Source: an uncultured Solobacterium sp.
GTDB taxonomy: Bacteria > Bacillota_I > Bacilli_A > Erysipelotrichales > Erysipelotrichaceae
Direction: 5' to 3'
Assembly: GCA_900543035.1 (NCBI GenBank)
Contig: UQPV01000036.1
Location: 1 to 29,117 of the forward strand
DNA: 29,117 nucleotides
Under the pieces are notes generated by a model. It did no database searches, was not told the origin of the DNA, and saw nothing but the letters and a program-made list of their open reading frames with translations. Positions 1,141 through 29,090 of the stretch are shown piece by piece. Position 1 is the first letter of the stretch, and every line of letters begins with the position of its first letter. Both the position numbers and the translations under genes were made by a program.

Positions 1141-1160
1141 CAACAGAATATAAAGAATGA

Positions 1161-1193
1161 AAATCGTCACTTAATTGCAAGTGGCGATTTTTT
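1161..1193 (+). terminator. Intrinsic terminator of the toxin-antitoxin operon
   Basis: AAATCGTCACTT (1161-1172) pairs with AAGTGGCGATTT (1179-1190) through one G-T wobble, closing a 6-nt loop and running into further T residues. It sits 20 nt after the toxin stop. Confidence 0.85.
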
Positions 1194-1218
1194 ATGCCGA
1201 AAAGGAGGTGCTTTTCAT

Positions 1219-1326
1219 TTGGAAGTCAAGATAAATAAAGAAATCCGTAACTACACAGACGGCTTTTGTCATCTTTCCAGCAGCCACTGGATGCCATCGG
1301 CGCAGCGTTTGATGACATTGGTGTAA
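1219..1326 (+). pseudogene. 5' fragment of a conjugative-element PrgI-family gene
   Basis: A TTG start at 1219 stands 10 nt after AAAGGAGG (1201-1208). The first codons read (L/M)EVKINKEIRNYT. This is the near-invariant N-terminus of the small PrgI-family membrane proteins in Tn916/Tn1549-like conjugative elements, which normally continue into a transmembrane segment of about 100 residues. Here similarity stops after roughly residue 14. The frame runs into sequence that is antisense to the end of the neighbouring esterase and stops at 1326 after 35 codons. The gene is therefore truncated, and the break lies at about 1258-1268. Recognition of the family is from memory of its N-terminal motif. 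Confidence 0.7.
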
Positions 1327-1931
1327 TGGCTGCCGAGATTCAGCTGGAATGTGGTGTCGATCCCCTGTTTGCGGACATGATCGACGATCGCTTCGGTATT
1401 TTCCCGGACACAGCGGATCAGCTGGTTTCTCGTCTTGTGCTCTTTATTGCCCAATGAGAAATACAGATGGTCCGGTGTGCATCTCGGTTCGTGGGACAGG
1501 CAGTATTCTTTGATGCCGGGAAACCACAGGGAGCCGGATATGCTGGCGGCGCGGCTGAACGCGTCGCTTTGATACAGGGCGTAGAGAGCAAACAGTCCGG
1601 CCAGGGAATAGCCGGCGATGCCGCGCCAAAGCGGTCTTGTGCTGAGGGTCTTCTCTGCTTCGGGGATGATGCGGGAAATGAGCAGCCGCAGATAAGCATC
1701 GGCGCCACCATGGAAGGCATCGCTTTGCGGGATGTTCCAGGGGACCATATCGCGGTTCCAATCCAGATCGCTGATGATGACCAGCGTGGCTTGCGGACAG
1801 TGCGCGGCGCTCAGCTGTTGAAGCAGTTGTTCGCTGATCTCTTCAAACGCGTGGAAATAGATGATGGGACACGCTTGCGCCGTGCCAGGCCATACACGCA
1901 CTGTTTTGTGCTGCAATGAAAATGATGTCAT
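1269..1931 (-). CDS. Esterase-like alpha/beta hydrolase (Fes/esterase D type)
   Basis: A 220-residue, single-domain alpha/beta hydrolase without a signal peptide. Landmarks are an early oxyanion strand (CPIIYFHAF), a segment with WNRDMVPWNIP typical of the putative-esterase (Fes/EsD-like) family, the nucleophile elbow GYSLAG with Ser109, and a candidate catalytic His at GSH, residue 202. It probably cleaves a carboxylic ester; the substrate cannot be read from the sequence. AGGTGA precedes the ATG at 1931 by about 6 nt. The stop codon lies within about 10 bp of the element junction, so the last residues may have been replaced. It is divergent from the sngA operon and their promoters overlap. 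Confidence 0.75.
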   Translation of the reverse strand: MTSFSLQHKTVRVWPGTAQACPIIYFHAFEEISEQLLQQLSAAHCPQATLVIISDLDWNRDMVPWNIPQSDAFHGGADAYLRLLISRIIPEAEKTLSTRPLWRGIAGYSLAGLFALYALYQSDAFSRAASISGSLWFPGIKEYCLSHEPRCTPDHLYFSLGNKEHKTRNQLIRCVRENTEAIVDHVRKQGIDTTFQLNLGSHYTNVIKRCADGIQWLLER

Positions 1932-1951
1932 TTAGCTCACCTGATTTCTCC

Positions 1952-1980
1952 TTGACGTATGCAGGTAAGGGAATTATACT
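1952..1980 (+). promoter_or_regulatory. Sigma-A promoter of the sngABC operon
   Basis: TTGACG (1952-1957), a 17-nt spacer and TATACT (1975-1980). This is the best promoter match upstream of the defence operon. It gives a leader of about 75 nt before the chosen start of sngA. Confidence 0.75.
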
Positions 1981-2001
1981 ATGCCTGAATTGAGAACACA
2001 A
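1973..2001 (-). promoter_or_regulatory. Divergent promoter of the esterase gene
   Basis: Read on the minus strand: TTGTGT (2001-1996), a 17-nt spacer and TATAAT (1978-1973). Its -10 hexamer overlaps the -10 hexamer of the plus-strand sngA promoter by 4 bp, so RNA polymerase should not be able to occupy both at once. Confidence 0.6.
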
Positions 2002-2060
2002 ACGACCGTGAACATGCCCGAATGGAGGGCCTTTCTTTTGATGAGCAGGGAGGTGACGCT

Positions 2061-3872
2061 TTGGAACTGTCAGAGCTGACGGCATATGCCAAGGAAAAAT
2101 ATCAGATTCAGGAACAGCGCAAATGGCCTGAACTGCCTGGCCTGTCCGTGCTGGCAGATCCAAAGACAGGAAAATGGGCGGCTCTGCTGATGCGGCAGTG
2201 GGACGGGGAGAGCGGCAGCGAGATCCAGCGCTGTGACATCAAATGCGGGCGCGAGGTGCTCGCTGAGCTGCCACTGTCCTTCCTCTCGCTGCCTTTCCAT
2301 ATGAGAGGACCGAGGTGGGTAGGCGTTGCCTTTGATGATCGCACTGATCCGGATGTCGTCTTCCGGCTCTTTGAGCGGGCATTGCGCGGGGATGGATGGC
2401 AAGGCTGCACCATCGTGCTGGACAATGCGCCAAGAAAAATGGTGGTCATCGAGCCTGTCACGCCGGCTTTTGCCGGCAGGCAGAGCAGCGTGGATATCCC
2501 GGAAAAGATCGAAGCGATGCTCGATCTGTATGAATATGAGGGCGGCTCTTTTTCCCAGAAGTGCCGCAACTTTTACCGGCAAGGCAAATGGATGGAAGAC
2601 TATGAGGACGATGTGCCATGGACCGGCGCGTTCCGCCGGTATTTTCCGACTTATCATGACTTGAATGTTCGGCAGCTGCGCGGCTATTTTACCTGGCGGA
2701 CACAGGTGCGCAAAGGGGTGTTTCATCCGATCACGACGTCGTTTGCGTATTTGTATGTCTATGAGCTGCTCAATGGCATCGGCGTTCGTTCGCCGGAAGA
2801 AACGCTGAGGAAGATGCGGGAATTTGAGGTCGGTTTCCTTGATTCCGGCATCGGTGATCAGAAGATGCGCAGCAATCTGCATCGCTGGATGATGGGGCAT
2901 GCAGTGCTGCACGGCGTCTCTACGGCGCTGGCCCGTCAGTACATGGATCCTTCGCTCATGGCTAAAGATGATGCCCTTGCGGCATTGCGCCATCCTGAAG
3001 AGGCTGCGGATGAGGAGATCTTTTCTGCGCTCTGTGTCTTTGGGGGAAAGAAGCTGGAGAGCTCACCGGTCATCACGAAAGCGCGGGAACAGGGACAGCG
3101 GCTGTTCGCGGAACTCTGGCGCCATGCGGCGAAGACCAGCGTGATCGAAGGAAAGGACATGTTCACCGCATGCTTCGGTGAGCAGAAGACGTTTTTGTGG
3201 CATCCGCTGGCTAACGCGGTCTATTGGGAAGAACAGCGGCATCCGGACGCAGATGTGGTCTGGGATGCGTGCCGTTCGTTTCATTGCCGCAATGGTGTCT
3301 GGTATGAAAAGCGTTATGACCAGCTGTATTTCGATCAGCGCCGGCTGCAGGCGCTCCTGCACGAGGCGGACCGTCTGTTCCGCCGTGAGCTGAAGACCAA
3401 TCATTATCTGCGTCAGAAAGCAGATGAAGCATGGGCGACGCCTTTGGCACAGGCGGCCATCCATGCTTGGCGGCAGGCGTCCCGGCCGGCAGTCACGATC
3501 GATCTCTCTGAGCTGGAACAGATCCGCTTGGACGCAATGCAGACCAGGGACAGTCTGTTGATCGAAGAGGAGCTGGAAGAGGAAGAGATCGCGGCTGCGG
3601 ACACTGCGGCGTCGGAAACGCAGCCGGATACGGTCGAGGGCCTGGATGCGCTGCATACGCAGATCCTGCGGATGCTGGCTCATGGCGATCCGCCTGCGGC
3701 GCTGATCAAGGCAAACCATCTGATGCCCGCAGTGGTGACCGATACGATCAATGAGGCTTTGTTCGATGTGTTCGGGGACAATGTCCTCGACTGCGACGGA
3801 GACGTGCTGCTGGCCGTGGAAGACTACCAGGAGGAGATCTTGCAAATGTTGGGAGGCAATAAGGATGAATAA
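2061..3872 (+). CDS. sngA: TerB-N/TerB-C domain protein, Shango SngA
   Basis: First gene of a three-gene Shango-type anti-phage operon. In the Shango literature SngA is the TerB-like component, acting with an ATPase and a helicase; its molecular role is not established. The product has 603 residues from a TTG at 2061, preferred because GGGAGGTGA ends 4-7 nt upstream (2048-2056). The ATG at 2022 has no upstream ribosome binding site. Residues about 10-60 form an N-terminal domain (WPELPGLSVLADPKTGKW). The TerB-N signature RRYFPTYHDLNVRQLRGYF followed by ELLNGIGVRSPEE lies at about 192-250. A TerB-C-like segment (VTIDLSELEQIRLDAM) lies near 480. An acidic linker precedes a C-terminal domain that ends in YQEEILQMLGG. 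No signal peptide or membrane segment is seen. It overlaps sngB by 8 bp. Confidence 0.85.
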   Translation: MELSELTAYAKEKYQIQEQRKWPELPGLSVLADPKTGKWAALLMRQWDGESGSEIQRCDIKCGREVLAELPLSFLSLPFHMRGPRWVGVAFDDRTDPDVVFRLFERALRGDGWQGCTIVLDNAPRKMVVIEPVTPAFAGRQSSVDIPEKIEAMLDLYEYEGGSFSQKCRNFYRQGKWMEDYEDDVPWTGAFRRYFPTYHDLNVRQLRGYFTWRTQVRKGVFHPITTSFAYLYVYELLNGIGVRSPEETLRKMREFEVGFLDSGIGDQKMRSNLHRWMMGHAVLHGVSTALARQYMDPSLMAKDDALAALRHPEEAADEEIFSALCVFGGKKLESSPVITKAREQGQRLFAELWRHAAKTSVIEGKDMFTACFGEQKTFLWHPLANAVYWEEQRHPDADVVWDACRSFHCRNGVWYEKRYDQLYFDQRRLQALLHEADRLFRRELKTNHYLRQKADEAWATPLAQAAIHAWRQASRPAVTIDLSELEQIRLDAMQTRDSLLIEEELEEEEIAAADTAASETQPDTVEGLDALHTQILRMLAHGDPPAALIKANHLMPAVVTDTINEALFDVFGDNVLDCDGDVLLAVEDYQEEILQMLGGNKDE

Positions 3873-5196
3873 GAATGAACGCAAAGTGCCCAGACGGATC
3901 GCGCAGACGATCCTGAATTCACTGAAGGGCGGAGTCGTTCCCCGCATCGGTCTGCCGTATATCGCGGTGGGCAGGAAAAATGAGATCGAAGCATTGCTTC
4001 ACGATGTGGATATCATCGCGGAGGGCGGCGCGTCATTCCGCTTCATCGTCGGCCGTTATGGGTCAGGAAAGAGCTTTCTGATCCAGACGATCCGCAACTA
4101 TGTCATGGACCGCGGCTTCATCGTCGCTGACGCCGATCTTTCGCCGGAGCGCCGTCTGCAAGGAAGCAGAGGACAGGGCCTGGCGACCTATCGGGAACTG
4201 ATCAGCAATCTGTCGACGAAGACGAGGCCGGAAGGCGGCGCCCTGACGCTCGTGCTGGATCGCTGGATCAGCGGTGTGCAGAGCGAAGCTGTGCGCGAAA
4301 CAGGGCTGACGCCTGGCGATGCCGCGCTGACGCAGGCCGTGGATCAGAAGATCTATGCGGTCACCTCGGCCATCAGCGAAATGGTGCATGGCTTTGAGTT
4401 TGCGCGGCTGCTTTCACGCTATTACCACGCGTATCTGGAAGGCGATGATGAGACGAAGGCGAAGGTCGTCCGCTGGTTCCGCGGCGAATATGCGCTGAAG
4501 CGGGAAGCAAAGGAAGAGCTCGGGGTCAATATCCTCATCACGGATGATGACTGGTATGATTATCTGAAGCTCTTTGCCGTCTTCTTCCGTCATGCTGGCT
4601 ATGCGGGCATGATGATCATGATCGATGAGCTGGTCAATCTTTACAAGATCCCCAATGCCATCACCAGACAGTATAATTATGAGAAGCTGCTCACCATGTA
4701 TAATGACACTTTGCAAGGCAAGGCGCAGTATCTGGGCATCATCATGGGCTCGACGCCGCAGGCCATCGAAGACCGCCGCCGGGGCATATACAGCTATGAG
4801 GCATTGCGTTCCCGTCTGGCTGAAGGCAAATTCTCCAAGCCGGGCAGTAGGGATCTGCTGGCGCCGGTCATCCATCTGGAGCCGCTGCAGCCGGAGGAAA
4901 TGCTGGTGCTGTGCGAAAAGCTCGCAGACATGCATGGCGGTCTGTATGGCTATGCGCGCAAGCTCAGCACAACGGATCTCGCCTGCTTCATCAAGCTGGA
5001 ATACGGACGGATCGGCGCGGATCAGCACATCACGCCCCGTGAGGTGATCCGTGATTTCATCGAGCTTTTGGATCTGTTATATCAGGATCCGGCCCGGACC
5101 ATGGATGATCTGCTGGATTCGGAAGACTTCGCTTATGCGAGATCAGAGGCGGTTTCCGATGAAGCAGACCAGGCCTTTGCGGAGTTCACCATATGA
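3865..5196 (+). CDS. sngB: BrxD-like P-loop ATPase (DUF2791), Shango SngB
   Basis: A 443-residue cytoplasmic P-loop ATPase of the BrxC/BrxD (DUF2791) family, related to the BrxD ATPase of BREX systems. The Walker A motif GRYGSGKS is at residues 63-70. A conserved ADLSPERRLQGSRGQGLATYRELI segment follows. Walker B with its acidic pair (MIMIDEL) is near residues 250-256, and IIMGSTPQAIEDRRRGIYSYEALRSRL provides the sensor/arginine-finger region. The C-terminal part (TPREVIRDFIELLDLL) resembles the winged-helix end of these ATPases. The ATG at 3865 follows GGGAGG (3851-3856) by 8 nt. The gene overlaps sngA by 8 bp and sngC by an ATGA overlap, so stoichiometric, coupled expression is likely. Confidence 0.88.
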   Translation: MNKNERKVPRRIAQTILNSLKGGVVPRIGLPYIAVGRKNEIEALLHDVDIIAEGGASFRFIVGRYGSGKSFLIQTIRNYVMDRGFIVADADLSPERRLQGSRGQGLATYRELISNLSTKTRPEGGALTLVLDRWISGVQSEAVRETGLTPGDAALTQAVDQKIYAVTSAISEMVHGFEFARLLSRYYHAYLEGDDETKAKVVRWFRGEYALKREAKEELGVNILITDDDWYDYLKLFAVFFRHAGYAGMMIMIDELVNLYKIPNAITRQYNYEKLLTMYNDTLQGKAQYLGIIMGSTPQAIEDRRRGIYSYEALRSRLAEGKFSKPGSRDLLAPVIHLEPLQPEEMLVLCEKLADMHGGLYGYARKLSTTDLACFIKLEYGRIGADQHITPREVIRDFIELLDLLYQDPARTMDDLLDSEDFAYARSEAVSDEADQAFAEFTI

Positions 5197-7436
5197 ATGT
5201 CTTCACGCGCTATGCGCCGTTCATCCAGGACTACATCTACCAAAGCGGCTGGCAGGCGCTGCGCAGCGTGCAGAATGCCGCCGCGGAAGCGATATTCAAT
5301 ACAGATGACAATGTGCTGTTGACGGCATCCACCGCTTCCGGCAAGACCGAAGCAGCCTTTTTTCCCATCCTGACCTTGCTCGATGAAGATCCGCCCCACA
5401 GCGTTGGCGTCTTATACATCGCTCCCCTGAAGGCGCTCATCAACGATCAGTTCGGACGGCTGAGCGAGCTGTGCGAGGAAGCCGGGATCCAGGTGACGCG
5501 CTGGCATGGGGATGTGTCTCACGCCCAAAAGCGCAGGCTGCTGCGCAAGCCTTCCGGCATCTTGCAGATCACGCCGGAGTCGCTGGAGTCGCTGATGATC
5601 AACAAGCATATGGAGATCCCTTCGCTGTTTGGCGATCTGCGCTTCATCGTCATCGACGAGGTCCATTCGCTGCTGCGGGGCGATCGGGGCATGCAGACGT
5701 TCTGTCTGATCGAGCGCATGTGCAGGCTGGCGGATTGCCGGCCCAGGCGCATCGGACTGTCGGCGACGATCGGCAATCCTGAGGAAGCCGGCCGTTTCCT
5801 GGGCGCAGGCAGCGGGCGAAGGACGCTCATCCCGCGCATCGAGGGCGGACGGGAAGTGTGGCGCTTATCCATGGAGCATTTCTTCAACAGTGGCCCGCAG
5901 GCTGATGAAGGCCGACAGCTCATCGATGCAGCGCCGGTATTGGAGGAAGCGAGCGATTCGGCGCCCAAGGCCGCTGATCCAGGCATCGGCTATATCTTTG
6001 AACATACCCGCGGCAGGAAATGCCTGATCTTTACCAATTCCCGTGAAGAATGTGAAGCGCTCTGTCAGAGCCTGCGTCAATACTGTGAGGCCAATCATGA
6101 GCCGGACCGCTTTCTCATCCACCATGGCAACTTGTCCGCTTCATATCGGGAAAGCGCAGAAGAAGAGATGAAAGATGATGATTCGCTGCTTTCGGTCTGT
6201 GCCACTGCCACGCTGGAGCTGGGCATCGACATCGGCAGGCTGGAGCGCGCATTTCAGGTCGACGCGCCTTTTACCGTGTCCGGATTCTTGCAGCGCATGG
6301 GCCGCACCGGCCGCCGCGGCGATCCCTGTGAGATGTGGTTCGTCATGCGTGAGGATCATCCTGAGCCCCGGGCGATGCTGCCGCAGCTCATCCCCTGGTA
6401 TCTGATCCAGGGCATCGCGCTGGTGCAGCTGTACATCGAGGAGCGGTTCGTAGAGCCTCCGCGCACACAGCGCTTGCCTTACAGCCTGCTGTATCATCAG
6501 ACGATGAGCACGCTGGCTTCCTGCGGGGAGATGACGCCGGCAGAGCTGGCCACGCGCGTCTTGACGCTGTCCAGCTTTCATCTGATCACGCAGGATGATT
6601 ATCGGATCTTGCTGCGGCATCTGATCAAGATCGGCCATATCGACCAGACCGAGAACGGCGGGCTCATCGTCGGCCTGGAAGGAGAGCGTATCGTCAATAA
6701 TTACAAGTTTTACGCGGTCTTTCAGGAAAATGTCGAATATGCCGTGCGCGCCGGCGCTGAAGAGCTGGGCACCATCGTCAAACCGCCGCCGATCGGCGAC
6801 AAGATCGCCATTGCCGGCCGCGTCTGGGTCGTGGAGGAAGTGGATCATCGCCGCCGCGAAGTATGCTGCACGCTGGTCAAAGGCAATATCCCGGCTTATT
6901 TCGGCGATGTCGCCGGCGATATCCACACCCGCATCCTGGAGCGGATGTATGGTGTGCTGAAGGAACAGAACAGCTATCCATACCTGATGCGGCATGCGGT
7001 GTGCCGATTGCAGGAAGCCAGGGAAAGCTTTGCGAAATCCGGCATGCGCGATCATCCGCTCGTTCATCTGGGCGGGAACATGTGGGCGCTGTTTCCCTGG
7101 CTGGGCAGCTACGCTTTCCTCGCTTTGGAGCGGATGTTGAAGATCCGCTGCAAACAGCGGCTGGGCTTGAAGGGGCTAGATTCCCTCAGGCCTTATTATC
7201 TGCAATTCACCATGAAGGTCAGCGCGTCTGACTTTTATCGGATCATGGCGGAAGAGGCAGAACAGGACTTCGATCCCCTTGAGCTCGTCTATCCCAACGA
7301 AGTTCCAAACTTTGAGAAATATGATGAATATGTCCCTGCCGAACTGGTCAGAAAAGGCTTTGCGCTGGGCGTGCTGGATGTGGAAGGCATGAAGCAGAGC
7401 GTGAGAAGCTGGTCCAGGTATGTGAAGGATAATTGA
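5193..7436 (+). CDS. sngC: Lhr/BrxHI-like superfamily 2 helicase, Shango SngC
   Basis: A 747-residue DEAD/DEAH-box helicase, the third Shango gene and a relative of the BrxHI helicase found with BrxD in some BREX loci. Motifs in order: Q-motif-like N-terminus, motif I TASTASGKT (about 44-52), motif Ia with APLKALINDQ, motif II DEVH (155-158), motif III LSATIG, ATATLELGIDIG (motif V region), and motif VI QRMGRTGRRG (367-376). A long C-terminal region (about 400-747) with Lhr-like accessory folds follows; no nuclease motif is seen. It should translocate on nucleic acid using ATP. Its start codon overlaps the sngB stop (ATGA). The operon ends at a hairpin 50 nt downstream. Confidence 0.9.
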   Translation: MNVFTRYAPFIQDYIYQSGWQALRSVQNAAAEAIFNTDDNVLLTASTASGKTEAAFFPILTLLDEDPPHSVGVLYIAPLKALINDQFGRLSELCEEAGIQVTRWHGDVSHAQKRRLLRKPSGILQITPESLESLMINKHMEIPSLFGDLRFIVIDEVHSLLRGDRGMQTFCLIERMCRLADCRPRRIGLSATIGNPEEAGRFLGAGSGRRTLIPRIEGGREVWRLSMEHFFNSGPQADEGRQLIDAAPVLEEASDSAPKAADPGIGYIFEHTRGRKCLIFTNSREECEALCQSLRQYCEANHEPDRFLIHHGNLSASYRESAEEEMKDDDSLLSVCATATLELGIDIGRLERAFQVDAPFTVSGFLQRMGRTGRRGDPCEMWFVMREDHPEPRAMLPQLIPWYLIQGIALVQLYIEERFVEPPRTQRLPYSLLYHQTMSTLASCGEMTPAELATRVLTLSSFHLITQDDYRILLRHLIKIGHIDQTENGGLIVGLEGERIVNNYKFYAVFQENVEYAVRAGAEELGTIVKPPPIGDKIAIAGRVWVVEEVDHRRREVCCTLVKGNIPAYFGDVAGDIHTRILERMYGVLKEQNSYPYLMRHAVCRLQEARESFAKSGMRDHPLVHLGGNMWALFPWLGSYAFLALERMLKIRCKQRLGLKGLDSLRPYYLQFTMKVSASDFYRIMAEEAEQDFDPLELVYPNEVPNFEKYDEYVPAELVRKGFALGVLDVEGMKQSVRSWSRYVKDN

Positions 7437-7487
7437 GATAAATGGGGTAAAGGCTTGCTGCGGCGAAAAGCGTGAGGCCCTTCAATG

Positions 7488-7526
7488 AAAATTCCCGTCA
7501 GCTGAACAGCAGCCGGCGGGAATTTT
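7488..7526. terminator. Bidirectional terminator between sngC and the XRE gene
   Basis: AAAATTCCCG (7488-7497) pairs with CGGGAATTTT (7517-7526), with a further partly paired CAGCTG...CAGCCG inner stem. The A-rich left arm and T-rich right arm suit termination from both convergent genes. Confidence 0.65.
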
Positions 7527-7560
7527 ACTTGTGCCTGATCACAGATGCGGGAGTGACGCA

Positions 7561-7806
7561 TCATTGTTTCTTGGCGATGTTTCGCTTTTCTGGTATGCGG
7601 ACGATATCTTCGATCTCACAGTTCAGGATATGGCAGAGGTCGGAAATGGTGTAAATGTTGAGATTGCCGCCCTTCCTCAGTTTGGACAGCGTTCTGGAAT
7701 TGACGTTGAACTGGTTGATGAGCTGGTACTGTGTGATCCTTTTCTGTTCCAGAAGCTGCCAGAAAGGAGAGTAGTCCACATAGTCGCTTTTATAAGAATT
7801 CTTCAT
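7561..7806 (-). CDS. Small XRE-type helix-turn-helix regulator
   Basis: An 81-residue Cro/C1-type DNA-binding protein. The core YSPFWQLLEQKRITQYQLINQF, the recognition helix NVNSRTLSKLRKG, and ISDLCHILNCEIEDIV match the short XRE family that opens with a YxPFW motif and has no effector domain. No clear ribosome binding site precedes the ATG at 7806; a GTG just before DYSPFW would give a length closer to the usual one of about 65-70 residues. It is convergent with sngC and separated by a shared terminator. Such proteins are often autorepressors; its target, and any link to the defence operon, are unknown. Confidence 0.8.
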   Translation of the reverse strand: MKNSYKSDYVDYSPFWQLLEQKRITQYQLINQFNVNSRTLSKLRKGGNLNIYTISDLCHILNCEIEDIVRIPEKRNIAKKQ

Positions 7807-7881
7807 GATTTTATTATATGGAAGAAAACCTGCTTCATTATCGGTATCATCGTATCAATGTGCTGCTATGGCGTCGAGGTG

Positions 7882-8082
7882 ATGGACTTGAGCAACAGCA
7901 TATATGATCCGCTTGTCATCAATGCGGAAATCTTTAAGATCCTGCTGGAAATGGGGCTTTCTGACGATTCGGGAAAGCTTGTCCCTTTGGAGCGTGAGTT
8001 TCTGCGGCTGCTGCATCAGCGGCTGTACGCGCATGGCTGTCTTGAACAGAAGCTGGAATACTATATCGTGATCTCAGCGTGA
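7882..8082 (+). CDS. Hypothetical small protein
   Basis: A 66-residue open frame, mostly helical and acidic (residues 1-30 include DPLVINAEIFKILLEMGLSDDSGKL). I do not recognise it. The ATG at 7882 directly follows GAGGTG, closer than an ideal ribosome binding site spacing. The frame stays open upstream to 7531, but that part is antisense to the XRE gene, so the true 5' end is uncertain. An ATG at 7858 is an alternative start. It lies between the XRE gene and a promoter at 8140. It may be a real small gene or the remnant of a longer one. Confidence 0.4.
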   Translation: MDLSNSIYDPLVINAEIFKILLEMGLSDDSGKLVPLEREFLRLLHQRLYAHGCLEQKLEYYIVISA

Positions 8083-8139
8083 TCTGCGCTGAGGGATCAG
8101 CGCGTTTCCCTGTCAGCGGCGGATTCTACTGACGGTAGA

Positions 8140-8167
8140 TTGACTTTGCGGCGCGCTTTCTTACAAT
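8140..8167 (+). promoter_or_regulatory. Sigma-A promoter of the XRE-membrane gene
   Basis: TTGACT (8140-8145), a 16-nt spacer and TACAAT (8162-8167), about 20 nt upstream of the coding start, so the leader is very short. Confidence 0.7.
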
Positions 8168-8188
8168 GGAAGGCAGGAGGGATGGATG

Positions 8189-8905
8189 ATGGATCAGATC
8201 AGCAATGAGAAAGTCGGACAGTTTATCGCCTGTCTGCGCCGTGAGCAGCAGCTGACTCAGCGTCAGCTGGCCGAGCGTCTGTATGTCTCGGACAAGGCGG
8301 TCAGCAAATGGGAGCGCGGGGAAAGCCTGCCCAGCGTGGCCCTGCTGATGCCGCTGGCCCGATGCCTGGGTGTCAGCGTCAACGAGCTGCTGAACGGCTC
8401 CAGGGAACCGGCGCAGCAGCTTTCAGGCACGGTGAGGACGATGACACAGCGCCAGCGCAGTCGCTGGCGGATCAGCTTCTGGATCACGCTTGGCCTATCG
8501 CTGTCGCTTTGGATCGCCTGTCTGTGCGCGGGTGCGCCGGTGAGGCAGCTGGGGGAGCCGGCTATGGCAGGGATGGTGATGCTTGGCTGTGCGGCATGGC
8601 TGGTGTTCTTTGCGCGGGAGCTGCTGCCTTCCTATTATGATGAGCACCGCATCAGCTTCGTGACACAGGGCATCCTGCGGATCCATCTGGGCAATACGGC
8701 GCTGAACAACGCCAACTGGCTGTTGGTGTGCGCCGTGCTGAAAGGATCCATGATGGCGTTAGCCATCGCAGAACCTGCCGCGCTGCTGATCTCGCTGCTT
8801 CTCGGGGCAGAGGGCGCATGGCTTGCGCTGCATCGCCATGTGCTGACGGCAGCGATGCTGGTGATGCTTGCAGCGGTATGGATCACCGCCCGCAAATATG
8901 CGTAA
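8189..8905 (+). CDS. XRE regulator fused to a membrane domain
   Basis: A 238-residue protein. Residues 1-65 are a classic Cro/C1 helix-turn-helix (LRREQQLTQRQLAERLYVSDKAVSKWERGESLPS, then LARCLGVSVNELLNG). After a basic linker come about four hydrophobic, probably transmembrane segments: near residues 95-115, 125-145, 175-205 and 213-233. The layout is common in Firmicutes, where the membrane part may sense envelope conditions while the N-terminus binds DNA. AGGAGGG (8175-8181) fits the ATG at 8189 (7 nt) better than the one at 8186 (4 nt). The gene follows its promoter closely. No target can be assigned; the next XRE gene has its own promoter. Confidence 0.82.
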   Translation: MDQISNEKVGQFIACLRREQQLTQRQLAERLYVSDKAVSKWERGESLPSVALLMPLARCLGVSVNELLNGSREPAQQLSGTVRTMTQRQRSRWRISFWITLGLSLSLWIACLCAGAPVRQLGEPAMAGMVMLGCAAWLVFFARELLPSYYDEHRISFVTQGILRIHLGNTALNNANWLLVCAVLKGSMMALAIAEPAALLISLLLGAEGAWLALHRHVLTAAMLVMLAAVWITARKYA

Positions 8906-14068: not shown

Positions 14069-14098
14069 AGAATCCAAAAGGGGTTCTTTTTATTTTTC
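14069..14098 (+). terminator. Terminator of the small basic gene
   Basis: AGAATCC (14069-14075) pairs with GGGTTCT (14081-14087) with one G-T wobble, followed by a T-rich tail. It overlaps the stop codon of the convergent AAA ATPase gene. Confidence 0.7.
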
Positions 14099-14815
14099 TG
14101 TTTTGTTCAGCAGATGGTTGAACAGTTGATCCCGGTGACTGACGAGCAGCGTCATGATCTGCCAGCTTTCTGTCTCTTCCACGGTGCATGGAGAGATGCC
14201 ATCCGGGCCAAAGTGAAGCAGGCAGGCATCGGGAATGGACATGAGCAGCGGGGAATGGGTGGCGATGATGAACTGTGAGCCCAAAGCGAGGCTTTCGCTG
14301 ATCATGAACGCCAGCGTGAGCTGATGCTGCCAGGATAAAGCAGCCTCAGGCTCATCCAGGAAAAATAAGCCGGGACGGCCGAAATGATCGTCTGCCAGCG
14401 CCAGAAAGCTTTCTCCGTGCGATCGTTCATGATACTTTTTTGAGGGGTGCTGCGCATCTGCGTAAGCCTCCTCCATGGTGGCTGTCTGATAGAAGCTCTC
14501 GGCGCGCAGGAAATAGCCGCCGCGCAGCATGGGCGGCCGGCGGACGAGCGTGAGCGCCTCATGCAAGGAAGAATGGGAGTCCCGCGTAGCGAAATGATAG
14601 TTGCGGGTGCCGCCTTCCGGATTGAAGCCGGATGCGATGGCCATGGCCTCCAGCAATGTTGATTTCCCGCTGCCGTTTTCGCCGGTGAAGATGGTCAGCC
14701 TTCTGGGCAAGGAAAGATGATCCAGATCATGCAGCGCCGGGATCTGGCGCAGCCAGCTGTCGCTCGCGATGTCTTCCCAGCGGATCTTGATGCTGGTGAT
14801 GACAGAATTCACCAT
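14090..14815 (-). CDS. AAA/ABC-type ATPase, OLD/RecF-like
   Basis: A 241-residue ATPase of the AAA_21 (RecF/OLD/SMC-like head) group. Walker A TGENGSGKST is at about residues 44-53, the ABC-like signature is in SHGESFLAL, Walker B is LFFLDEPEAALS, and the switch His is in IIATHSPLL. There are no membrane segments and no long coiled coil, so it is an isolated head domain. Small proteins of this type are common, and a few belong to defence pairs, but no partner nuclease or effector is next to it here. AAGGAG lies 8 nt before the ATG at 14815. It runs in the same direction as the upstream YbaK-type gene, with a terminator-like hairpin between them. Confidence 0.85.
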   Translation of the reverse strand: MVNSVITSIKIRWEDIASDSWLRQIPALHDLDHLSLPRRLTIFTGENGSGKSTLLEAMAIASGFNPEGGTRNYHFATRDSHSSLHEALTLVRRPPMLRGGYFLRAESFYQTATMEEAYADAQHPSKKYHERSHGESFLALADDHFGRPGLFFLDEPEAALSWQHQLTLAFMISESLALGSQFIIATHSPLLMSIPDACLLHFGPDGISPCTVEETESWQIMTLLVSHRDQLFNHLLNKTEK

Positions 14816-27075: not shown

Positions 27076-27151
27076 GGGGTTTTAGCTCAGTTGGGAGAGC
27101 GCTACGCTGGCAGCGTAGAGGTCAGGGGTTCGAGCCCCCTAAGCTCCACCA
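27076..27151 (+). tRNA. tRNA-Ala (anticodon GGC)
   Basis: A 76-nt cloverleaf with encoded CCA. The acceptor stem GGGGTTT/AAGCTCC includes the G3-U70 pair that identifies alanine tRNA. The D arm is AGCTCAGTTGGGAGAGC; the anticodon stem CTACG/CGTAG encloses CTGGCAG with anticodon GGC. The T arm is AGGGG-TTCGAGC-CCCCT. The base composition changes immediately after its 3' end, so it may be an integration target. Confidence 0.95.
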
Positions 27152-27343: not shown

Positions 27344-28672
27344 ATGAAAGTTTCAATTAAAACTATAAAAATCACATCTGTAATCTCTGCTCTCTCTCTC
27401 GTTATTGCCTTGCTTATGGGGGCGGAATATTTTAAGGATACCTCGCAGATATATTTGTTTGGAATTTCTTGGGTTACACTACAAAATACAGCGTTTGGGA
27501 TTTTCGGAAGTGCTGCACTTGCAGCAGTATCAGCCGGAATTATTTATGGTGTAGATAAAGAAGCATATCTGAACAAATCTGAACAGTATTTGATTCATGT
27601 GTGTACAAAATCCAAAACTGCCTTTGTGCAGCTTACCGAGGCCAATAAAATTTTGGAGAATGGAATCCTTTCAAAAAACGAAAAAGCTACTTTCACAGGT
27701 GTTTCAACTATAGTTTCGTTTATTGAGACTCAACAGGAAGCAATACAGCCAGCATCAATGCAGTTTTTATTCAAGCGTAGCCAGGTGGCTTCGTATAACG
27801 CGCTGTTATGCAGATGCCATGAAGTAACACAAGGATTGATTCAGCTGAGCAACAAATTGCAGGTAAAATATGGACACTGGGAAATAAATGACGCCGTGAA
27901 GAATGCAGCACAGTCTTCGACTGGACTAGACAGTCCGCTTTTAGATGAGGCAAGAAGTTGTTCAGAAGAGGATCTGCGCTTAACAATTAACCAAATAAGT
28001 TGGCAACTCAATAATGTGATCCAATACACCACTTTGGCGATTCATCAACTTTTTTATCTTCAGAAGAAAGAAGATAAGCTCCAATCAATTTTTCAAATGA
28101 TGGATGATCAGGCACAATATTACCAAAAAACACTTGAGGTCCAAGCGCCTACGGTTGACAAGAAAACAATAGCAGAGCACCAGATCAAAGTTGTTCAACA
28201 GGTTTCTAACATAGAAGGCATATTGTGTGACTCCCATAGTCCTGCAATCACTATGATGACCCAAAATCCCTACGCATATGTGAATACTTTGACAGATGTA
28301 TTGAAGAATATGCGTGCTTGCCGATATGAGGTATCCGTGTTATATGCCTCTGATAAAAAGTTGGTTTTCGATATCAATACGATTGTGGATGATCTTGGTA
28401 TGCTAATTGAGCAGCTCCATACGACTGTTGCTTTGGCCACATCTCTTCGACCGGAGTGGATTGACCACTTGCAAAGAAATGGAATAGATGTAAATTCTGC
28501 TTACCTGTTTGATCCGAAGCTAATTGAGTTAACAGAAGCGTTTCTGAAGGAAAAGACGCCGTATGGAAAGACACAACTATTGGCAGATGAAATTTTTAAA
28601 ATAATTCGTTCTGACGAGTTTAAGAACCGCCTACATTTTAGCGATAATAGGAATAGTTTGGAAGCAAAATAA
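27344..28672 (+). CDS. Unrecognised membrane-anchored protein
   Basis: A 442-residue protein that I cannot assign. Two hydrophobic segments near the N-terminus (about 8-26 and 45-70) suggest a membrane hairpin. The remaining 370 residues are soluble and mostly helical, with long Gln/Lys/Glu-rich stretches (for example 235-290) that could form coiled coils; no catalytic motif stands out. An AGG 8 nt upstream, with a GGAGG 13 nt upstream, supports the ATG at 27344. The coding sequence is clearly more AT-rich, with different codon choice, than the genes left of the tRNA, which suggests transfer. Anchor-plus-helical-domain proteins of unknown function are common cargo on integrative elements. Confidence 0.75.
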   Translation: MKVSIKTIKITSVISALSLVIALLMGAEYFKDTSQIYLFGISWVTLQNTAFGIFGSAALAAVSAGIIYGVDKEAYLNKSEQYLIHVCTKSKTAFVQLTEANKILENGILSKNEKATFTGVSTIVSFIETQQEAIQPASMQFLFKRSQVASYNALLCRCHEVTQGLIQLSNKLQVKYGHWEINDAVKNAAQSSTGLDSPLLDEARSCSEEDLRLTINQISWQLNNVIQYTTLAIHQLFYLQKKEDKLQSIFQMMDDQAQYYQKTLEVQAPTVDKKTIAEHQIKVVQQVSNIEGILCDSHSPAITMMTQNPYAYVNTLTDVLKNMRACRYEVSVLYASDKKLVFDINTIVDDLGMLIEQLHTTVALATSLRPEWIDHLQRNGIDVNSAYLFDPKLIELTEAFLKEKTPYGKTQLLADEIFKIIRSDEFKNRLHFSDNRNSLEAK

Positions 28673-28699
28673 TCTGTTGTTATTAAGATAGTTAATTTA

Positions 28700-29090
28700 T
28701 ATGGATTATGTCGCAAGCAATGCGAGTGTTCATACACACGCTCCTTTTCCGCTTGTTGGGGACTATGCCCCAAACCCCACTGAACACAGAACTCATTCTG
28801 TGGCTCTACGTGTTCTGCGAATACTTTTGAAGGGTATGCTAAAACGCCGCCCCCTTTGCAGGGATGTGACGAATCGTTACACACTTATGAGGTGGCAATA
28901 TACCATCCCATCCGGCGATATAAGTTTCGCCAAAAGGGGTTTTCCAAAATGGAAGCCCCTTACTCGGGACGATAGCTATGGTGACTATCCCTCCAAAAGG
29001 GTGTTCAAATATCGCACCCCTTTACATCGTAAAGGTACTTTGAAACAGGGACACCCCTGATTCCGACTGGTACGTCGCAAAACGCGACGC
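28700..29090. other. Hairpin-rich non-coding region, possible oriT/ssDNA origin
   Basis: At least nine stem-loops are packed into about 370 bp: 28722-28741, 28756-28773 (TTGGGG/CCCCAA), 28785-28802 (CACAGAA/TTCTGTG), 28865-28881, 28934-28961 (AAGGGG/CCCCTT with an inner TTCC/GGAA), 28995-29023, 29020-29034 (CTTTAC/GTAAAG), 29046-29059 and 29074-29088 (GTCGC/GCGAC). An outer GAACAC/GTGTTC pair (28782-28815) encloses the third. A 119-codon frame crosses it (28701-29060) but has no ribosome binding site, and its sequence is explained by the stems. The first stems recall the intergenic stretch found in Firmicute integrative elements ahead of mobilisation genes. A structured RNA is the alternative. 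Confidence 0.5.

Follow-up and report, generated by a model that had tools for sequence, protein, structure and literature searches.

The three-gene operon in the window, by which we mean the whole analysed stretch of 29,117 nucleotides from an uncultured Solobacterium sp., raises two questions: whether it codes for a complete Shango anti-phage system, and which of its products may recognise the phage. The sequence-only reading had described it as a complete Shango-type operon for a TerB protein, a BrxD-like ATPase and a BrxHI-like helicase. The relevant features are located as follows.

1952..1980, + strand: sigma-70-like promoter TTGACG-17-TATACT upstream of sngA, agreeing with 10 of 12 consensus positions
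2022-3872, + strand: sngA, 616 aa when counted from ATG 2022
2061..3872, + strand: likelier extent of sngA with a TTG start, GGGAGGTG lying upstream and MELSEL starts occurring in relatives; PADLOC SngA 2.7e-74
2061..2396, + strand: N-terminal MmcQ/YjbR (PF04237, DUF419) double-wing domain of SngA, residues 14-125 from ATG 2022
2484..3086, + strand: TerB_N domain (PF13208) of SngA, Pfam 6.6e-28
3471..3839, + strand: TerB_C domain (PF15615) of SngA, Pfam 8.2e-19, winged-helix-like in the model from about 3618
3865-5196, + strand: sngB from ATG 3865, 443 aa, BrxC/D-family AAA+ ATPase; PADLOC SngB 1.7e-188
5193-7436, + strand: sngC, 747 aa, Lhr/BrxHI-like SF2 helicase; PADLOC SngC 1.3e-279
7488..7526, + strand: strong hairpin, probable terminator, -23.4 kcal/mol, z -5.45

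Operon Layout and Expression Signals

The two gene overlaps reported earlier were confirmed, with 8 bp shared by sngA and sngB (3865-3872) and 4 bp by sngB and sngC (5193-5196); a mechanical list of open reading frames opens the frame of sngB earlier, at 3751. Because relatives of SngA such as P0005, P0006, P0008, P0010-P0012 and P0018 begin with MELSELTAYA and GGGAGGTG precedes TTG 2061, this codon appears to be the likelier start of sngA. ATG 2022 could also serve, given that the near-identical SngA cluster P0004 keeps the same 13 residues upstream of the MELSEL start. The single good promoter claimed before is well placed and close to consensus, but scanning positions 1150-8200 yielded 6 comparable sites versus 3.3 (sd 1.9) in shuffled sequences, which is not clearly above chance; the site is plausible from its position, the statistics giving no support. 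The claimed terminator does correspond to a strong hairpin, but its TTTT belongs to the stem itself, the hairpin is not followed by a T run, and the structure is missing from the output of a terminator scan that allowed loops of 3-8. We regard it as a probable terminator.

Identification as Shango

All three proteins matched their PADLOC Shango models, and the corresponding BREX models gave weaker matches (BrxD with 2e-46 for SngB and BrxHI with 3.9e-127 for SngC). Expressed in bit scores, the SngB model reached 625 versus 157 for BrxD and the SngC model 928 versus 423 for BrxHI, amounting to about four and two times the score. With the NCBIfam BrxD equivalog, SngB obtained 160.2 bits and thus stayed below the cut-off of 350. 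The Pfam families TerB_N, TerB_C and BrxC_BrxD (2.3e-167) were all matched, so the lack of hits that would have spoken against the Shango assignment did not occur. The three genes are adjacent within one operon, their ATPase and helicase motifs are intact, and TerB_N and TerB_C are both present in SngA of the window and in 71 of 71 aligned SngA proteins. What is missing is the TerB core domain PF05099, which is listed as a Shango component in a passage of PMC10952713. Because a Paenibacillus SngA without a Pfam TerB match outscored that of Salmonella with the PADLOC SngA model (359.9 versus 340.1 bits), this model does not require the TerB core, and we treated the domain as the mark of a subtype rather than of Shango as a system. 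As judged from these matches, the operon almost certainly codes for a complete Shango anti-phage system, in which both motor proteins, SngB and SngC, are ordinary and SngA is the variant part.

The names "BrxD-like" and "BrxHI-like" hold in that the families are homologous, but the proteins are only cousins, considering the BrxD cut-off and the separate position of BrxD-like proteins in the SngB tree (see below). The operon had also been presented as a stand-alone Gram-positive version without pglX and pglZ. In fact, no pglX, pglZ, brxC or pglW family was matched by Pfam among 27 scanned open reading frames of the window, apart from the BrxC_BrxD match of SngB itself. Neither this nor the Gram-positive host is exceptional, because PMC10250203 describes Shango as an independent system of three genes, and it has been reported in the Bacillus cereus group, in a single Staphylococcus aureus strain of CC15 and in genomes from the rumen (PMC11811056, PMC13216270, PMC13356809).

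Domain Architecture of SngA

The N-terminal domain of SngA agrees with PF04237 (DUF419) by sequence and by fold, leaving hardly any doubt that it is a YjbR domain. A YjbR profile matched 119 of the 120 SngA homologues listed; it was built from members of our alignment A1, whose matches are thus by construction. The TerB core PF05099 was found by Pfam in none of 71 aligned SngA proteins and with a custom TerB profile in none of the 120 homologues listed. The earlier label "TerB protein" is therefore correct as to TerB_N and TerB_C but misleading as to the core domain, which is absent, and the N-terminus, which is occupied by YjbR. Because 16 of the 71 SngA proteins in A1 lack YjbR, a few of them perhaps mis-started or cut by contig ends, the domain cannot be indispensable for the clade as a whole. 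Alignment A1 omitted L038, L054 and L060 (short or cut) of 73 SngA frames, and A2 took 58 of 70 locus references. Seven of the 80 loci compared had no called SngA frame (L005, L028, L039, L053, L065, L073 and L074), and tblastn detected SngA sequence in all of these except L074.

YjbR-family proteins are regarded as double-wing DNA binders from their fold and surface, and a fusion with TerB is mentioned (PMC7641849). The YjbR domain of SngA is a putative DNA binder. TerB_N and TerB_C may provide a docking site for SngB, which is a guess since TerB_N plus the middle region of SngA gave no match in the PDB.

The same source lists YjbR-EVE and YjbR-TerB fusions, which resemble SngA in joining YjbR to defence-linked proteins; in the passages concerned, the YjbR-TerB fusion is not tied to Shango (PMC7641849). 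Because it cites Anantharaman 2012 for YjbR-TerB, the fusion in itself is unlikely to be novel, and that work may already describe the protein family of SngA. Our literature search found no paper linking YjbR with Shango among the matches listed. A natural lineage without TerB suggests that the core of Shango consists of TerB_N, TerB_C, SngB and SngC, and points to the likely sensor. This division into core and sensor makes domain-removal and DNA-binding tests possible, and the Shango loci of the window's clade would escape searches based on PF05099.

Comparison with E. coli-Type Shango

The window shares with the Shango systems of E. coli and Pseudomonas aeruginosa PA14 the gene order A-B-C, the overlapping genes, TerB_N and TerB_C, an SngB of the BrxC/D family and an SF2 helicase as SngC. 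The SngA proteins of Salmonella, Klebsiella and Azospirillum carry Pfam TerB and no YjbR, whereas the reverse applies to SngA of the window. Pfam detected TerB in three of the four comparison proteins, a set which excludes PA14 SngA; the E. coli protein is 95.6% identical to that of Salmonella. Because our TerB profile, made from four proteins, matches these by construction, we repeated the search with profiles built without the query, which still matched SngA of E. coli (9.5e-69) and Azospirillum (4.6e-21). Between the window and E. coli, SngB is 41% and SngC 31% identical, and the SngA proteins gave no BLASTP match at 1e-4. A core profile derived from SngA of the gut clade also misses the Salmonella, Klebsiella and E. 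coli proteins at 1e-3, so it is the Pfam and PADLOC models that carry the proposed kinship of the two SngA types. For PA14 Shango transferred to PAO1, a 10-100-fold decrease in plating was reported for many, not all, phages, and liquid cultures were generally protected (PMC10250203).

The SngB and SngC Motors

The statement that all ATPase and helicase motifs are intact was borne out by their location. SngB contains Walker A at residue 63 (window 4051) and the hhhDE motif at residue 251 (window 4615), the latter kept in 74 of 74 full-length relatives, of which 66 show the Walker A pattern. SngC contains TASGKT at residue 47 (motif I), DEVH at 155 (II), LSAT at 189 (III) and QRMGRTGR at 367 (VI), all kept in 71 of 71 full-length relatives; ELGIDIG occurs in 64 of them. 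The best solved sequence relatives of SngC are the Lhr-type entries 5v9x (8.2e-31) and 7lhl; Lhr-type helicases are not known to work with partners like SngA or SngB. Pfam and PADLOC matched no nuclease catalytic family in SngA, SngB or SngC, the ResIII match of SngC presumably reflecting the helicase part of that family. SngC, together with BrxHI, DruE and DpdJ, belongs to a clade of SF2 helicases that act against phage (PMC12278908), and BrxD has been proposed to load or activate BrxHI, possibly (PMC12839542).

SngB Phylogeny and SngA Variants

The SngB tree comprised 54 proteins, namely 24 hand-chosen from the 80 loci, 20 from regions fetched from the phylum, five named systems, four BrxD-like proteins and the window. 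It was computed by a quick method, and many of its rows were hand-chosen, so counts taken from it are no census. The 50 Shango rows were split from the four BrxD-like rows with support 100, the outgroup branches being long; only L114 of the latter passes the BrxD cut-off of 350 (382 bits), and L115, L116 and L117 fail it (261, 168 and 140). The clade holding the window (25 rows, support 99) consists mostly of gut and rumen anaerobes and includes all 12 rows labelled YjbR.

To sample the phylum, the genome of L002 (G005, Ructibacterium, Bacillota) was taken as the centre because of its SngB match. SngB matches of at least 519 bits were found in 22 of 398 Bacillota genomes, the centre included, and some match at 1e-3 in 50 of them, many distant. 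Regions from 20 of the 22 strong genomes were fetched; G337 was left out and G005 was already in the set. The SngA core profile recognises 19 of the 20 SngA proteins, and these 19 match neither the YjbR nor the TerB profile at 0.01; Pfam likewise found neither domain in the 8 of them scanned. The twentieth (L138) matches TerB (8.4e-12), and its SngB clusters with that of the E. coli type (support 100). The layout of SngA thus tracks the SngB lineage, all 12 YjbR rows of the tree lying in the window's clade. Gains and losses of YjbR amount to 8 changes across the 50 Shango rows, with only 1 change forced by well-supported branches.

Other layouts occur as well. SngA of L137 (5309-7282) carries an N-terminal TM2 domain (5.9e-13), which suggests a membrane-attached Shango. 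SngA of L127 (5364-9056) has 1230 residues, 640 of them before TerB_N, and that of L126 (8-3991) 1327 residues with 799 before TerB_N, its frame touching the edge of the fetched stretch; neither N-terminal part has a Pfam match at 0.05.

Sequence Divergence and Distribution

The 80 loci are the best 80 of 295 relatives found with SngB. Among hits covering at least 95%, median identities to the window were 49.7% for SngA (36.0-58.3, n=53), 83.1% for SngB (81.3-87.1, n=74) and 81.2% for SngC (75.1-85.7, n=71). The ranking by SngB similarity inflates the SngB value, whereas the contrast of SngA and SngC is not biased in that way. Polymerase IV from five of the same genomes is 54-62% identical to that of the window. 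A variable SngA beside steady SngB and SngC proteins is as would be expected of a recognition subunit.

GC3 values are 0.67, 0.70 and 0.73 for the three operon genes, 0.72 for polymerase IV and 0.71 for a glycogen-type nucleotidyltransferase gene of the window. Because the GC3 of sngB follows that of the genes on either side (r 0.80, 65 loci), the Shango genes are settled residents rather than recent arrivals. About 0.9 kb upstream of the operon, a Phd/YefM-ParE type toxin-antitoxin pair (546-1140) shows lower GC3 values of 0.56 and 0.50.

Proposed Mechanism and Alternatives

A 2026 review lists the mechanism of Shango as unknown (PMC12926258), and our literature search found no account of it among the matches listed. 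The best overall explanation, which we rate as evenly balanced between right and wrong, is a complete Shango of a mostly gut and rumen lineage in which SngA recognises the target and SngB loads SngC. The detailed course is more tentative. SngA would act as the recognition subunit, with its YjbR double wing and C-terminal winged helix contacting invading DNA or phage nucleoprotein. SngB, as an ORC/Cdc6-like AAA+ ring, would dock on the TerB_N/TerB_C scaffold and load or activate SngC, an Lhr/BrxHI-type SF2 helicase, where SngA has recognised its target. SngC would then strip or unwind phage replication intermediates, causing phage DNA synthesis to fail. Self-marking by methylation would be unneeded, because SngA would read a structure or protein rather than a sequence mark.

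We further propose, with similar caution, that Shango may consist of a fixed SngB-SngC motor and an exchangeable recognition subunit SngA, whose TerB_N/TerB_C scaffold is kept and whose sensing part is swapped by lineage, the YjbR domain of the gut clade possibly reading phage DNA directly. The sensing parts would then be the TerB core, the YjbR double wing, the TM2 segment and the N-termini of 640-800 unassigned residues. If true, TerB, the domain used to describe SngA, becomes dispensable.

Two other modes of action seem rather unlikely, yet deserve consideration. In an abortive mode, SngB and SngC would respond to damage or replication stress by releasing a harmful SngA, as HamB releases HamA in Hachiman. 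The place of SngC among anti-phage SF2 helicases and the precedent of Hachiman for a helicase sensor (PMC12278908) are in line with this, but no nuclease or toxin family was matched in SngA. Equally doubtful is a clearance guided by the host, with Shango unwinding phage DNA for degradation by exonucleases of the host or by a restriction system nearby, so that Shango would lack an effector of its own. The lack of nuclease catalytic families in the three proteins fits this, as do DNA methylase genes inside the operons of L010 and L051, accompanied in one by EcoRI, and the reported preference of restriction-modification genes to be co-located with Shango at sites outside defence islands (PMC10924106). 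However, methylases occur in only two of four loci with scanned inserts, intergenic frames (some probably spurious) in 11 of 80 loci, and no gene lies between the Shango genes of the window.

A housekeeping DNA-repair operon around an Lhr-type helicase would agree with the old residence indicated by GC3 and with the Lhr-type relatives of SngC, but is very improbable in view of the patchy distribution, with SngB matches of at least 519 bits in 22 of the 398 phylum genomes and SngB-like matches in 479 of 5426 genomes of E. coli and 692 of 72,556 plasmid records, and of the commonest flanking gene cluster occurring at only 10 of 80 loci. Finally, a stand-alone BREX type 2 remnant, whose BrxD and BrxHI acquired a TerB-family gene, can practically be dismissed: the ATPase and helicase pair is homologous to the BrxD-BrxHI dyad and matches BrxC_BrxD and the BrxHI model, but the Shango models score far higher, SngB stays under the BrxD cut-off, no pglX, pglZ, brxC or pglW family was matched among the 27 window frames scanned, and the Shango rows form one side of a fully supported, albeit long, branch, with one of four BrxD-like rows passing the cut-off.

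Inserted Genes and Other Neighbours

At L010 (3783-6813), an EcoRI-family endonuclease gene (5.3e-151) and two N6/N4 methylase genes lie between sngB and sngC, where no gene was called in the close relative L012; either a restriction cassette entered the Shango operon, or the relative lost it. In L051 (5944-9976, Treponema vincentii), sngA and sngB are separated by two DNA methylase genes, and sngB and sngC by several small frames. At L009:3690-4622, a gene with a RhuM/Fic domain separates sngB from sngC, and at L071:6169-8067, genes with DUF3990 and Sel1 repeats separate sngA from sngB. At 8 of 80 loci, sngC overlaps with or directly adjoins a small gene at its end, e.g., L055:13526-13951, which presumably codes for an HxlR-type regulator.

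Elsewhere in the window, tRNA-Ala(GGC) at 27076-27151 directly precedes a stretch of low GC (27344-29060) with frames of 442 and 119 aa, the first with a GC3 of 0.37, neither matched by Pfam or PADLOC; this is possibly the start of an island at the tRNA. A short AAA_21 ATPase encoded at 14090-14815 on the - strand is weakly similar to AriA and PtuA by PADLOC and is probably an ordinary ABC-type ATPase.
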